DNA from: an uncultured Bdellovibrionales bacterium
Lineage (GTDB): Bacteria; Bdellovibrionota; Bdellovibrionia; Bdellovibrionales; UBA1609
DNA length: 64,000 nt
Direction of reading: 5' to 3'
Assembly: GCA_903833275.1 (NCBI GenBank)
Contig: CAILEP010000031.1
Location: 124,001-188,000, forward strand
The position numbers were made by a program, and so were the translations under genes. The notes beneath the pieces were generated by a model. The model saw only the letters and a list, made by a program, of their open reading frames with translations. It was not told where the DNA came from and made no database searches. Positions 15,621 to 22,403 of the stretch are shown here, in pieces (positions within the stretch are counted from its first letter, which is position 1; the number at the start of each line of letters is the position of its first letter).

Positions 15621-18221
15621 ATGCTCGATTTAAGTAAATTCACTCAAAAAAGCCAAGAAGCAATACAGGCCGCCGCGCGCCTGGCAGAAGACAATCGAAA
15701 CTCTCAAATTGAGCCCGATCATGTAATTTCTGAACTGGTTCGGCAAGATGAGGGCATTGTTCCGCAGGTCCTAGGGGCCCAACAAGCCCCGCAAAAAGTG
15801 AAAATAAGCGAATTGAGCCAAAAATTGGCAGCCCGATTGCGTGATCTGCCTCAATTGAGCGGCCCAAAAAACGGACAGATAGGGGTCTCGCAAGGCCTTT
15901 TGGCGCTACTTAAGCAGTCCGAAGTCGAGGCCAAACTGTGGGGCGATTCATTCGTTTCGACAGAGCACTTTATCTTAGCCCAGTTAAAAGAGAAGGCCAG
16001 TGAGCTCACGCGAATTCTCGAGCGTGCAGGGGTGAATTACACCAGTTTCTCAGCTACTCTTAAAGAGAAGAGGGGGTCACAGAAAGTGACTGATGATAAT
16101 CCTGAAGTAAAGTTTGATACACTTAAAAAATACGCACGAGACCTTACAGAGTTGGCGGAGTCAGGCAAACTTGACCCGGTTGTCGGTCGCGACGAAGAGA
16201 TTCGCCGCGTGATTCAGGTTCTCTCTCGCCGAACTAAAAATAACCCTGTGCTCATTGGCGAGCCCGGCGTTGGTAAAACGGCCATCGCCGAAGGCCTTGC
16301 GCTTAGAATTATTAACAAAGATGTTCCTGATGTTCTTATTGATAAGAAGCTGATGTCTCTTGATATGGGTTCGCTTATAGCGGGCGCCAAATACCGCGGC
16401 GAATTTGAAGATCGTCTGAAAGCCGTTATTAAAGAAGTCACAGAGTCAAACGGTAAAATCATTCTGTTTATTGATGAGCTTCATACTCTCGTTGGCGCCG
16501 GCAAGGGTGAGGGGTCAATGGATGCCGGCCAGTTGTTAAAACCTGCTCTAGCTCGCGGCGAGCTTCGTTGTATTGGTGCAACGACTCTCGACGAATATCG
16601 AAAATACATTGAAAAAGACAAAGCCCTTGAGCGTCGTTTTCAAACAGTACTTGTTCAAGAGCCCTCAGTTGCAGATGCGACTACGATTCTGAGGGGTCTC
16701 AAAGAGAAATACGAGGTCCATCACGGGGTGCGAATCACCGATTCGGCTATTGTGGCGGCGGTAAAACTATCACACAGATATATAGCCGATCGGTTTCTGC
16801 CAGATAAGGCTATCGATTTGATGGATGAGGCCGCCTCACGGCTCTCGATCGAAATTAATAGCGTGCCGGCTGAAATTGACGAGATCCAACGTCATATTAC
16901 TCAACTTAAAATTGAAAACGAAGCTTTGAAAAAAGAAACGGACGAGGCATCTAGAGAACGGCTGAGTGCAATCGCGCTTGAGCTGAAGGGTCTTGAGCAA
17001 AAGGTCGGTGGTCTTAAAAAGCAATGGGATAAAGAAAAAGAAGAGATTCTTGGCTCTAAAAAAACCAAAGAAGAAATTGAGAGCGTTAAAATTGAAATTG
17101 ATCGCGCAGAGCGCGATGGTCGTCTTGATCGCGCTGCAGAACTAAAATACGGGCGCTTGCCCGATTTAGAGAAAAAACTTGTATCGTTCACCGAAAAATC
17201 AAAAGCTAAAAAAGATGACAACCGATTGTTACGAGAAGAAGTAACCCCTGACGAAATCGCCGAGATCGTGGCGAAATGGACCGGGATCCCGGTCAACAAA
17301 ATGCTGCAAAGTGAAACTACGCGTTTGCTTAAGATGGAAGACCACCTTCGCGCTCGCGTAGTGGGTCAAGACAAGGCATTGACAGCAGTGGCTGATGCGA
17401 TCCGCCGTTCTCGAGCCGAAATATCAGACCCCAATCAGCCCATTGGTTCGTTTATGTTCTTGGGGCCGACCGGCGTAGGTAAGACCGAAACAGTGAAGGC
17501 TCTCGCCGAATTTCTTTTCGATACTGAAGAAGCCGTGGTTCGCATCGACATGTCAGAGTACATGGAGAAACATTCGGTATCTCGTTTAATCGGCGCGCCT
17601 CCTGGCTACGTAGGTTATGAAGAAGGTGGGCAGTTAACGGAGCGTGTTCGTCGCCGCCCGTACAGCGTGGTGTTGCTCGATGAAATCGAAAAGGCCCATC
17701 CCGAAGTTTTCAACGTTTTGCTACAAGTTCTTGATGACGGTCGGCTCACCGATGGTCAGGGTCGAACCGTTGATTTTCGCAACACGGTCTTCGTAATGAC
17801 TTCGAACATAGGCTCACAGTCGATAATGGATGAGTCTTTAAATGACGAGAAAAAACGTCAAGCCGTGCTTTCTCAACTCAAAGACCACTTTCGCCCCGAG
17901 TTTTTAAATCGGGTTGATGAAATTATCGTCTTTGATAGTTTAACTGAAAAGCTCTTGAGTCAAATTGTCGAGATTCAACTCGGCGAAGTAAATCGTCGCC
18001 TTCAGGATAAAAAATTAGAGCTAATTTTTAGTGATAAAGCAAAAGAATGGTTGGGCGCCAGAGGCTTCGATGCTGTTTATGGGGCCCGCCCCTTAAAGAG
18101 AATTATAAAAACTGAGGTTTTGAACCCGCTTGCCAAGGGCCTTATCGCTGGAGAATACGGCCCCGGGGATAAAATTAAAGTGGACGCCCATGACCTCGGG
18201 TTAAACTTCTCGAAATCGTAA
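15621..18221 (+). CDS. clpB: Disaggregase ClpB
   Basis: AAA+ chaperone that, with DnaK, extracts proteins from aggregates. The 866-residue protein is full length: Clp N-domain (1-145), first AAA+ module with Walker [10 protein letters not shown] (near 210) and Walker B LFIDELH, the ClpB coiled-coil middle domain (about 410-530), and a second AAA+ module with GPTGVGKTE (near 615), LLDEIEK and the C-terminal GARPLKR sensor-2. It has no IGF/IGL ClpP loop in the second module, which fits ClpB and not ClpA. The ATG follows GAGGTG. A small perfect hairpin AGCTGA-GAA-TCAGCT lies 24-38 bases upstream; no heat-shock promoter is clear. Confidence 0.97.
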
Positions 18222-18386: not shown

Positions 18387-21300
18387 ATGATCGCACTTCG
18401 CATTTTTATTATTGCCACATTTATTGTATCGGCTGCAGCGCGGGCTGAAGAGAGCGCGGGCACCGGCGCGCCTAAAAACATTGCCACCAAGTATACAAAG
18501 AAAGAAATTGCTGACTCGAGATTTGGCGTTGGCGAAAAAGAAGAATTCATGCGTCTCGCGCACGGAGTGGCTAAAGAACTCAATAAGAAAATCTTGGGGC
18601 AAGAAAATACCACGCTCATTTTGCAAGATCGGTTGATTCAATACATCGAGTCTTACCCAAACCGAAAAGGCGAGCCGGTTGCGATCAACTTAATCGGGTT
18701 GCCAGGTATCGGAAAAACCGGAATGCTCAAGGCGTTAGAAGATGTTGGTCTGCCGGTTGTTATTTTCAATGCCCAAGATTACGTCGGCGAAAGAGGCCGC
18801 GGGTTTAAAGAAGAACTCTTTGTCGGCCTCTCGAGGCACGGCGGGCTAAGTGCGACTCCAGACGGCAAATTCAAGGTCGACAAGCCCCTCATAATTGTCA
18901 TTGATGAGCTTGATAAAGTGCCCGAAATAGACGGAAACCAGGTCGAGACGACTCAGGCTCTGGTCGGCGCGGTCAATGCCATATTGTCAGAGGGCGAGCT
19001 GTCCGCCTATGGTACGAGCATTGATGTTTCAAATGTTATGTTCGTAACAACGATGAATTTTTCAACTAAAGATATCGAGTCGTTTACCTCTGAAATCCTG
19101 GACAAAGGTAAAAACTACTATGAGTTAACGATCGAAGATTTTCAAAAATTCGATGAATGGGTGCGCAATCAACCCAGTGCTCGATTTCGAGTTCTGTCAA
19201 AAATGTTTCGGTCAAATACGGTCAGCCGCCTGGCTCCCAACACCGTCATTTTGCAGCCGCTGAGCCGAGACGTCTATCGACGTATCATTGAGCTGGTGAT
19301 CGCAGAAACGACGCAAAAAGCTGGCCAAAAATCAATTGGCGTTTCGTACGATCCGTCGCTTGTTGAATTTCTTCTTAATAATGCTGTGTTTGCTCCATCA
19401 GGCGCGCGCGAGACCATTTTTCGCGCTCGAGCCATTCTCGAGCAGCTGGTGAATTTCGGTGTAAAGGCCATCGACCCCAAGGGCGATTCGACGGTCGATC
19501 GCCCCCGTGAGCTCGCGCTTTCAGTGGTCGGCTCAAAGGCGGTGGTAAGAGTCACACCCGTCGTAAACAAAATGGGCGAGATGCACAAGCGTATGAGTTT
19601 TGAGATTGAAGCTCAATACGACGCGGGTGCAAAATTATTTATTGCCCCGACCCAACTCGAAAGCACTAAGCCGGTTTACCCCGAGCCTAAATCTCAAGAG
19701 AAGCAGATTTCCAAAAAAGAAGTAGTCGCCGCGCGCTACCCTTTGACTGCCGAAATCCCGCCTCAAGTGGCAGCAAAAATAAACTCGGTACTTATTGGGC
19801 AAGAAGAAACCGTTAACTTAATTCTCGACGACATGAAGAAATACTTGGGCCGACCGGGCCCTGCCGCAAAAGAGCCTTCGGCTCGAATTCTCAGCGGGTT
19901 TCCGGGCATCGGAAAGTCTGAACTAGCAAGACTTGTAGGCGCCAACCTCAATTTGCCAATCGTAAAAATTAACATGCAGCAATTTTCTTCGGATTCAGCA
20001 GAAACCGTAACTGATTTTCTGGCTTACCTTAACGGAAAGATTAATGAGGCAAAAGCGGCGGCCAGCGAGCAAAAAAATGGCGGCAAATATATTTTGCTTC
20101 TTGAAGAGCTCGACAAGGTTTTCGAAATCGATCCGCAAACCGGTCGTTTTGTTAACCGCCCGATTATGGCGCTTATAAAAGATTTGCTCAACGATGGGCA
20201 AATTGCAGCGTCCCTTGGCCACGGTGCCAATGTCCAAATCGATATTCGTGACGCCTTTGCTTTAGTTACAATGAATTTCTCGGTAGATCGTTTCGGTTTC
20301 GAGGCCGACCCTCGCCTAACTTCGATAGGTGACGTCATGAATGCTTGGCGCTCGCTGAACGGCACCCCGATGGCCCTCAAGCAACTCTTGAGCTCGATGT
20401 TTTTACCGGAGACTGTCAGCCGATTGATGTCTCGTTTTACAATTATGAAGCCCCTTGAAGCCGCCGATTACAAGCGTCTAATTGCGAACCAAATCGACAA
20501 TGTTGTGAAGTCGCGTCTTTTAGACCCTAAGGGTCGCAACGTCGCGAAGCTCGATGTTAAGCTGACCGGCGCTTACGAAAATTATCTTTATCAAGAAACG
20601 GTTATCCCCTCTGAAGGTGGCCGTTATACCGTCGTTTCAGTGCAAAATAAGATTGCTTCAGATCTTGAGGCTGCGATGCAAAATATCCCTCGCAAGAAGG
20701 GCATCGAGGCAGCGCCGCTTTTAATTACGCTGGATTATGACAAGGCCAATTCGCAGGTTGTAATTAGAATGGCCTTAAATAAAGATCCGAGCGTCGCGGC
20801 TCAAAATGAAGAAGAGATTTTGCGTCGTGATGTCATAGAGCAGTTTCCGTCGCCAGAGATTGACGGCAAAATTCCTGCGTTTCGTTTATTTGTATCAGCA
20901 CACGAGTTTGGTCATGCCTATATGGGCATGCGCTTGGGTTTGCCGATTGAACATGTTGTGGTGGTCTCACCAAGCCCCGGTACGGGTGGCTACGTAAAAT
21001 TCGCCGGCGATTCAAACTCCGGCCGCGATTTAATTTTTAACGTTTTCTCGGCGCTCGCTTCGCGCGCGTTTGAGCGAATCGTGATGAGCCCAAACCCGAC
21101 AGACGAAAAAAGTGTTTTGCAAATTACCAGCGGCCCGTCAGCGGATATCAGGCAGGCTACTTATCAAATGTATTTGGCAATTTACGAACTCGGCCTCGAC
21201 CCGCAAGGCGGCACGATCGACAGCAATTTTAATTTGGGCTCGGGGCGCTATGCAAGTATCGACCTTATGCCGAAAGAATTGGCCGACCAGATCGGTCGGT

Positions 21301-21686
21301 TGATGCGTGAGATGGAGAATTTTATGGTTGCCGACTTTTTGAAGTTGCATCCGCAACAGTGGTACGTCCAAAAAATCCTTGAGCTGGCCCGAAAAGGCCA
21401 TATGACAGGCAATGGTTTTGCCGACCTCGTTGGGTTCAATCTCGATAGTTCGCGATCAGCCGCCAGCGACGTGACCGACCATTTTCGAAAGCTTTTTGGT
21501 GAACATATTCTCGAGCCGAGCATTTCTGCTTCAAATAGCTCTAGCGCCAAAGCGTCGGCAGCCGAAACGCTAACGACGATTAAAGCCAACAGAGACGCCT
21601 ATCTACATGAATTTACTAAACTTCTTAAGAATAACCTGCATCCAGGCAAGGCCGATTCTTGCGCCAGCCTTTTAAAAGGAGCTTAG
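18387..21686 (+). CDS. Signal-peptide protein with two AAA+ modules and an M41 zinc peptidase domain
   Basis: A 1099-residue protein with an unusual order of domains. Residues 1-20 look like a Sec signal or single anchor (core IFIIATFIVSAAARA). Module 1 has Walker A GLPGIGKT (104-111), Walker B IIVIDELDK (169-177), a likely Arg finger (Arg281 in VSRL) and sensor-2 GAR (Arg341). Module 2 has GFPGIGKS (504-511), LLLEELDK (Walker B Asp replaced by Glu573), Arg679 and GGR (Arg746). Both resemble ClpX/ClpB-D2 modules, and both start with a GQE box. The C-terminal third has HEFGH (His839, Glu840, His843) and SGPSADIRQAT (Asp920), matching the FtsH/M41 zinc ligands. FtsH has one AAA+ and one M41 domain, so this is a distinct architecture. 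I infer an ATP-driven protease or unfoldase; the location is uncertain because the periplasm lacks ATP. Confidence 0.85.
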   Translation: MIALRIFIIATFIVSAAARAEESAGTGAPKNIATKYTKKEIADSRFGVGEKEEFMRLAHGVAKELNKKILGQENTTLILQDRLIQYIESYPNRKGEPVAINLIGLPGIGKTGMLKALEDVGLPVVIFNAQDYVGERGRGFKEELFVGLSRHGGLSATPDGKFKVDKPLIIVIDELDKVPEIDGNQVETTQALVGAVNAILSEGELSAYGTSIDVSNVMFVTTMNFSTKDIESFTSEILDKGKNYYELTIEDFQKFDEWVRNQPSARFRVLSKMFRSNTVSRLAPNTVILQPLSRDVYRRIIELVIAETTQKAGQKSIGVSYDPSLVEFLLNNAVFAPSGARETIFRARAILEQLVNFGVKAIDPKGDSTVDRPRELALSVVGSKAVVRVTPVVNKMGEMHKRMSFEIEAQYDAGAKLFIAPTQLESTKPVYPEPKSQEKQISKKEVVAARYPLTAEIPPQVAAKINSVLIGQEETVNLILDDMKKYLGRPGPAAKEPSARILSGFPGIGKSELARLVGANLNLPIVKINMQQFSSDSAETVTDFLAYLNGKINEAKAAASEQKNGGKYILLLEELDKVFEIDPQTGRFVNRPIMALIKDLLNDGQIAASLGHGANVQIDIRDAFALVTMNFSVDRFGFEADPRLTSIGDVMNAWRSLNGTPMALKQLLSSMFLPETVSRLMSRFTIMKPLEAADYKRLIANQIDNVVKSRLLDPKGRNVAKLDVKLTGAYENYLYQETVIPSEGGRYTVVSVQNKIASDLEAAMQNIPRKKGIEAAPLLITLDYDKANSQVVIRMALNKDPSVAAQNEEEILRRDVIEQFPSPEIDGKIPAFRLFVSAHEFGHAYMGMRLGLPIEHVVVVSPSPGTGGYVKFAGDSNSGRDLIFNVFSALASRAFERIVMSPNPTDEKSVLQITSGPSADIRQATYQMYLAIYELGLDPQGGTIDSNFNLGSGRYASIDLMPKELADQIGRLMREMENFMVADFLKLHPQQWYVQKILELARKGHMTGNGFADLVGFNLDSSRSAASDVTDHFRKLFGEHILEPSISASNSSSAKASAAETLTTIKANRDAYLHEFTKLLKNNLHPGKADSCASLLKGA

Positions 21687-21773: not shown

Positions 21774-22403
21774 ATGTTTTCTGGTATCGTCGAAACCAAG
21801 GTAAATCTTTTGGAGTGGTCGTCTGTTGACCGCTCTGCACAAGTCAAAATTCAAAGGCCAAGCAATTTCAAAGATTTAAGTATCGGCGACAGTATCGCCA
21901 TCGACGGCGTATGTTTGACCCTAGAAAAATTCACGACCGACTCAGCTGATTCAGATTTTCTGCAATTTTATCTCGGAGCAGAAACTTTAAAAGTCACAGG
22001 CTGGACGGCCGAGAAACTTAAAAATAAAGCTCTCAATATCGAAAGATCCCTGCGCCTAGCGGATCGCGTTCATGGGCATTTTGTTCTTGGGCACGTTGAC
22101 GCGATGGGGAGTGTTATCGCAGCAGAGAAAACCGGCGAAAATATTCAGCTAACAATTGCATTATCGGCGCCCCTGCGCCCACTTGTTTGGCGCAAAGGCA
22201 GCGTCGCGATCAACGGCATCAGTCTCACGATTAACAACGTTCGTGATATCAGCTCGACTGACTCCGTAGAGATTGAGCTTTGTATTATTCCTGAAACAAT
22301 TCGTCGAACAAATATTTCGCATTTGAAGGCTGGCGATTTAGTCACGGTTGAGGCTGACCAATACGCGCGCGCACTTCAAAGATTTAGTGAGGCAAAGCCG
22401 TGA
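21774..22403 (+). CDS. ribE: Riboflavin synthase alpha chain
   Basis: Converts two 6,7-dimethyl-8-ribityllumazine into riboflavin plus the pyrimidine. The 209-residue protein is the usual tandem of two lumazine-binding barrels: MFSGIVET at the N-terminus, IDGVCLTL in the first repeat, [11 protein letters not shown] at the repeat boundary and INGISLTIN in the second. Its stop overlaps the ribBA start (GTGA). No FMN riboswitch fold is visible in the 87 bases upstream, and ribD is not next to it. Confidence 0.95.

Follow-up and report, generated by a model that had tools for sequence, protein, structure and literature searches.

Several AAA+ proteins act outside the cytosol: Skd3 acts in the mitochondrial intermembrane space (PMC9934407), the Torsins, which are HSP100-related and non-cytosolic, are found in the nuclear envelope and the endoplasmic reticulum (PMC7175109), and HSP101 of the PTEX translocon of Plasmodium is an HSP100 motor located at the vacuole membrane, outside the parasite's own cytoplasm (PMC6550532). 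In the present work we describe a gene from an uncultured Bdellovibrionales bacterium, contained in a stretch of 64,000 nucleotides (contig CAILEP010000031.1, positions 124,001 to 188,000; the whole stretch is called the window below), which encodes a protein of 1099 residues, P0001, with two AAA+ modules and an M41 peptidase domain behind a signal-peptide-like N-terminus. We propose, with a probability of roughly 0.6, that P0001 is an exported unfoldase-protease driven by adenosine triphosphate (ATP) that it obtains from elsewhere.

Signal peptide, ATPase modules and peptidase domain of P0001

The open reading frame starts with ATG, agrees exactly with its first reading and has no second copy in the genome of 3.08 Mb. 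Of 369 Bdellovibrionota genomes, 8 have full-length homologues (two copies ~18 kb apart in one carrier, and one match truncated at the end of its contig); contig records and a search of the phylum added four Elusimicrobiota genomes. The distribution of the family is sparse. A restriction to Bdellovibrionota, which the original prediction had considered as the mark of a lineage-specific machine, is ruled out by the Elusimicrobiota homologues. Phage or plasmid origin is ruled out too, since neither phages nor plasmids gave any match; two viral contigs gave weak matches only, and none with the family profile.

Pfam AAA is matched twice over its cut-off in P0001 and by all 12 homologues, and ClpB_D2-small and Torsin by 7 of the 12 each (best E 1e-6 for Torsin, P0001 itself not being among the seven). 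Modules 1 and 2 of P0001 share 26% identity (E 5e-20), which points to an internal duplication. Their catalytic sets, K110, E174, the sensor-1 N224, R281 and R341 in module 1 and K510, E574 (Asp in the homologue L007), the sensor-1 N630, R679 and R746 in module 2, are conserved across 12 homologues that span two phyla at 28-62% identity, in agreement with the first reading of two D2-like modules, each with a Walker A motif, an Arg-finger-type Arg and a sensor-2 Arg. The invariance of the Walker A Lys, the sensor-1 Asn, the Arg finger and the sensor-2 Arg over two phyla indicates selection for ATP hydrolysis and, at the level of sequence, conservation at the ATPase and peptidase sites speaks for an active unfoldase-protease driven by ATP. 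An exported peptidase or holdase whose AAA+ modules served as a non-hydrolysing scaffold would accord with the lack of ATP expected outside and with the missing canonical pore loop 1 of P0001; however, the invariance of those four residues in both modules, together with a catalytic Glu that never varies in module 1 and is replaced in one of 12 in module 2, makes such a scaffold very improbable. The Glu standing for the second Walker B Asp had been taken as a sign of unequal modules, an idea ruled out by the variation across the family, where either module may have Asp or Glu at the first acidic position of Walker B: L003, L005 and L018 show Glu in module 1 as well, and L008 has Asp in module 2.

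Full-length P0001 was modelled with AlphaFold2 on an alignment of 12 sequences (A4), with a mean predicted local distance difference test score (pLDDT) of 77 and a predicted template modelling score (pTM) of 0.47. The AAA+ part of the model matches ClpA, ClpC and ClpB chains overall with a large root-mean-square deviation (rmsd), and it is the matches of single modules that are informative in this prediction, such as those to Skd3 7ttr (Z 19.8, rmsd 3.1, 281 residues) and, for module 2, to ClpB D2 4fcv (Z 19.8, rmsd 3.5, 283 residues). A sequence search of the PDB with P0001 also returned ClpB D2 and, weakly, FtsH-family ATPase domains. Because the AAA+ fold matches of the full model cover residues 63-800, the C-terminal part was modelled separately (alignment A6, pLDDT 72, pTM 0.67). 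With VIA-align the top 22 entries for this model are all FtsH-family chains at Z 9.9-14.7, followed by entries at 7.7 and 4.3, and Foldseek gave the same result. The Pfam M41 match of P0001 alone lies under the cut-off (E 0.003), 8 of the 12 homologues match the family (best E 7e-9), and the zinc-site residues of P0001 are H839, E840, H843 and D920. The FtsH-family matches of the predicted fold make the M41 assignment secure despite the weak sequence score. Thus the peptidase identity originally read from HEFGH and SADIRQAT holds, and structure prediction, which had been suggested as a check, gave D2-type folds for the modules and an M41/FtsH-like C-terminal part.

Scored with a home-made rule, signal-peptide-like N-termini are present in all 12 members with a readable start (P0001 and 11 others), with a positive n-region in 11 of them, an h-region of 9-18 residues, mostly 9-11, and an AXA-like site; by the same rule none of the 18 cytosolic ClpA-type proteins from the same search, our internal control, has a signal peptide. 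The mature parts lie below the transmembrane threshold (best 19-residue hydropathy 1.06-1.68, the usual threshold being ~1.8). In L018 an RR pair stands ahead of the h-region, and this member may be exported by the twin-arginine translocation (Tat) pathway. The original prediction had noted a signal-like N-terminus in P0001, now seen in every readable member, and left the choice between export and anchoring undecided; these N-termini, with their mostly short h-regions, and the lack of any other transmembrane-grade segment favour export, which is well supported by the sequences. From this we infer that P0001 is in fact exported and its signal cleaved. Were the N-terminal segment an uncleaved signal anchor with the body in the cytoplasm, P0001 would be an FtsH-like membrane protease running on cytosolic ATP, which removes the ATP problem; FtsH itself is tethered to the membrane and keeps its M41 domain in the cytosol, only one Arg precedes the h-region of P0001, and several members are positive after the segment. 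Such an anchor appears unlikely, however, since most h-regions have few residues for a membrane span, AXA-like sites come after them in nearly all members, the positive n-regions would orient the remainder outward, and in the Elusimicrobiota the segment is followed by a low-complexity, Ala/Pro-rich linker of ~110-190 residues ahead of the first module, as in the exported ClpB-like proteins of that phylum.

Proposed mechanism and source of ATP

For the exported unfoldase-protease we propose that P0001 would cross the inner membrane by means of its signal peptide and act outside its own cytoplasm, where the two D2-type modules are expected to stack as two rings of a hexamer and pass unfolded substrate to the fused M41 zinc peptidase domain for proteolysis. 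A disulfide through the C-terminal Cys probably links the particle to another copy or to a partner. Its substrate, site of action and ATP source we infer; the ATP would most likely come from another cell (prey, host or lysed cells), a proposal drawn by analogy with Plasmodium HSP101 as a motor working outside the parasite's own cytoplasm. Some Bdellovibrionota are predators, growing in the periplasm of their prey and feeding on its cytoplasm (PMC7529429), which makes prey ATP a natural guess for P0001.

Several points weigh against this proposal. The bacterial periplasm is held to be without ATP, and ATP-dependent chaperones and proteases are generally regarded as useless there (PMC4516975). 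No ATP source was found, a search for Tlc-type nucleotide carriers having come back empty without a positive control and being therefore uninformative. To our knowledge the Elusimicrobiota carriers are not predators and have no known prey; the guess of prey ATP is weakened by these carriers, the source organism itself not being established as a predator. P0001 lacks in both modules the aromatic-glycine pore loop 1 of ClpB and ClpX, this loop here being a short, polar stretch with SSDS as its consensus in module 2, so that threading of the substrate by P0001 is conjectural; the related P0002 family, described below, keeps GYVG-like pore loops in its last AAA+ module. The pTM of 0.47 leaves the arrangement of the modules uncertain, the rule used for signal peptides is our own and not SignalP, and a low Cys content, which we dropped as proof of export, is not diagnostic, as the ClpB encoded in this genome contains 1 Cys and the FtsH 2.

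P0001 could also be exported and yet stay in the periplasm or envelope of its own cell, a protease of quality control to which the lineage supplies ATP by an unspecified route. Exported ATPases of several unrelated kinds occur in these phyla, among them three AAA+ families encoded by a single genome and, next to L008, a protein with MutS domain V whose N-terminus resembles a signal or a lipobox; these, and the Elusimicrobiota carriers, for which we know of no prey, would suit this arrangement. It seems improbable all the same, as no ATP exporter was identified and it conflicts with the accepted ATP-free periplasm (PMC4516975). The proposed export of an ATP-driven P0001 implies, if true, that either another cell's ATP drives these machines or the periplasm of these bacteria has usable ATP. 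Export signals and intact ATPase residues conserved together in two phyla stand in direct conflict with the view that ATP-dependent chaperones and proteases have no use in the periplasm (PMC4516975), and the P0001 family makes the use of prey or host ATP as against own periplasmic ATP a testable question.

Related AAA+ proteins with predicted export and a C-terminal cysteine

A search of the same genome for M41 and AAA revealed two further AAA+ proteins bearing signal peptides. P0002 (L070:8627-12916, contig C35), of ~1400 residues, is a triple AAA+-M41 protein with three Walker A motifs, the motif HELGHA, an M41 match over the cut-off (E 1.6e-10) and the end ...KTCADELK, and has relatives in 23 of 241 Bdellovibrionota genomes; the P0001 and P0002 families align in hhalign with a probability of 100 and E 1e-39 over 845 columns, along AAA+-AAA+ and into the beginning of the peptidase domain. 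P0003 (L073:3468-6266, contig C28) has two AAA+ modules, no peptidase and the end ...SCTELLKGAK; proteins of its type recur among the best matches of their search, most remaining matches being cytosolic ClpA. Both families resemble P0001 in being multi-AAA+ proteins of the same phylum with predicted export and a C-terminal Cys, and differ from it in that many P0002 members have an extra AAA+ module at the N-terminus, making three, and the P0002 family retains its pore loops, whereas P0003 is without the peptidase. P0001 itself shows the three marks of this group, a signal-peptide-like start, tandem conserved ATPase modules and a late Cys. The same genome also encodes a 204-residue protein without AAA+ (L071:7953-8567, contig C34), with a HEAGHA motif and a Peptidase_M41 match over the cut-off.

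In the Elusimicrobiota, at least 7 of 11 inspected long ClpB-like proteins have a signal-peptide-like start as judged by eye; these seven (L150-L152, L154, L156, L158 and L159) are double-AAA+ proteins without M41 motif, several of them with long low-complexity linkers and with one Cys or none. Another locus of this phylum, L160 (G440:C5 49500-54500), belongs to an open frame with a reported length of 17,755 codons, in which a ClpB-like AAA+ pair adjoins a zinc-carboxypeptidase-like stretch.

A Cys is found within the last 22 residues in 39 of the 41 complete Bdellovibrionota members of the three families, 1.5 being expected if placed randomly, and in 2 of 18 cytosolic ClpA controls (Fisher P 2e-10 for exported proteins against controls, uncorrected for kinship). 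Its context is often C-x-x-hydrophobic-hydrophobic (SCASLLKGA, SCTELLKGAK, TCRFLFN, SCKKLFN, TCKTLF), it forms an invariant column in 16 aligned P0002 members, and it is usually among very few, often the sole, Cys of the mature protein; the Elusimicrobiota members of the P0001 family are without it. In a survey of 33 exported proteins, the only non-AAA+ proteins with a C-terminal Cys were two paralogues near L004. The simplest guess is a disulfide to a partner or to another copy, and the shared tail may serve as a signal for anchoring or assembly that has so far escaped notice. Two adjacent exported paralogues of ~330 residues without Pfam match, L043:15737-16732 and L043:16719-17705, lie near an exported AAA+ gene, and each has the lone Cys of its mature part at the C-terminus.

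We see about an even chance that Bdellovibrionota and Elusimicrobiota deploy a family of ATP-hydrolysing AAA+ machines, both unfoldases and unfoldase-proteases, outside their own cytoplasm, held or assembled in Bdellovibrionota by the Cys tail, which would be the first such extracytoplasmic machines in bacteria and would run on another cell's ATP or on periplasmic ATP.

The locus and its comparison with known systems

Table 1. Features of the P0001 gene, in positions of the window.
Feature	Position	Strand	Basis
12-G run, three bases ahead of the start codon	18372..18383	+	Possible slippage (phase-variable) tract or assembly error
Gene for exported AAA+-AAA+-M41 protein (predicted), 1099 aa	18387..21686	+	Open reading frame; full-length homologues
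Signal peptide, cleavage likely after ...AAARA (residue 20)	18387..18446	+	Signal-peptide-like N-termini in all readable homologues
AAA+ module 1, ~residues 45-411, HSP100 D2-type	18519..19619	+	Pfam AAA/AAA_2/ClpB_D2-small; fold matches
Walker A, module 1, GLPGIGKT, residues 104-111	18696..18719	+	Motif reading
Walker B, module 1, IIVIDE, residues 169-174	18891..18908	+	E174 invariant
Putative arginine finger, module 1, R281	19227..19229	+	Invariant
Sensor 2, module 1, R341	19407..19409	+	Invariant
AAA+ module 2, ~residues 455-770, HSP100 D2-type	19749..20696	+	Pfam AAA; ClpB D2 4fcv fold match
Walker A, module 2, GFPGIGKS, residues 504-511	19896..19919	+	Motif reading
Walker B, module 2, LLLEE, residues 570-574	20094..20108	+	E574 kept in 11/12
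Putative arginine finger, module 2, R679	20421..20423	+	Invariant
Sensor 2, module 2, R746	20622..20624	+	Invariant
M41 peptidase domain, ~residues 815-1017	20829..21437	+	Pfam in homologues; Foldseek; VIA-align
Zinc motif HEFGH, residues 839-843	20901..20915	+	In all members that reach it
Third zinc ligand D920 in SGPSADIRQAT	21144..21146	+	Invariant in members that reach it
Lone C-terminal cysteine C1092, tail SCASLLKGA	21660..21662	+	Survey of C-terminal tails

The gene is preceded by clpB, which ends at 18221 after which follows a gap of 165 bp, and a riboflavin synthase-like gene, named from its sequence, starts at 21774 after a gap of 87 bp. The adjacency of clpB had been offered as a sign of ClpB-type ancestry; no other homologue locus with flanking genes has a clpB neighbour, and we dropped the argument, the adjacency being coincidental. 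No conserved gene neighbourhood was found around the homologues apart from frequent exported neighbours. Directly upstream of L003 lies a gene for a signal-peptide protein with a Gln_deamidase_2 domain (L040:3739-4623, E 1.8e-24), and an exported M28 peptidase is encoded alongside L005; these exported enzymes fit an effector-like setting at some loci. In Bacteriovoracia, two genes downstream of the exported AAA+-AAA+-M41 gene of L008, a MutS domain V/III ATPase is encoded (L044:4881-6512), whose residue 18 is its only Cys.

In ~1.1 Mb of fetched sequence, counting overlapping copies, no G/C run other than the G12 tract reaches a length of 9; the longest other G run in the window is 7, and no such tract was seen in the P0001 homologues. 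It is possibly phase-variable, acting on translation or transcription, or else an assembly error.

No family in Pfam, NCBIfam or the PDB has the order AAA+-AAA+-M41, as the original prediction had supposed, and no NCBIfam model comes near its cut-off; in the literature, subscription papers being mostly outside reach, no paper was found that describes this order or a signal peptide on any bacterial AAA+ protein. The peptidase and AAA+ domains are of known kinds, and it is their order, the signal peptide and the C-terminal Cys that are not in the families and papers searched. With FtsH and the other AAA proteases (MEROPS M41) P0001 shares the M41 domain, with HExxH and the Asp ligand of SGxxxDI..AT, and its peptidase has a predicted fold matching FtsH, AFG3L2 and YME1 (Z ~10-14); in contrast to FtsH, with one classical AAA module and a retained membrane anchor, it has two HSP100-D2-type modules and a signal-peptide-like N-terminus, and it scores 23 on the FtsH equivalog TIGR01241, below the cut-off of 600 for a full-length match. 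D2-like AAA+ modules are shared with ClpB, ClpA and ClpC (HSP100) and with Skd3, the best single-module matches being ClpB D2, Skd3 and ClpX. Unlike ClpB, P0001 has no recognised ClpB N-domain or D1-type module and carries a cis-fused M41 domain and a signal peptide, and its scores on the ClpB (23.8 against 1232 bits) and ClpA (33 against 993 bits) equivalogs likewise fall short of a full-length match. The Torsins differ in being eukaryotic, with a single module and no peptidase, and require cofactors such as LAP1 because integral catalytic features are absent. PTEX entries are among the fold matches of the P0001 model, and Plasmodium HSP101, with its canonical ClpB layout and no peptidase, is a eukaryotic motor that translocates its substrates, whereas P0001 would degrade them.

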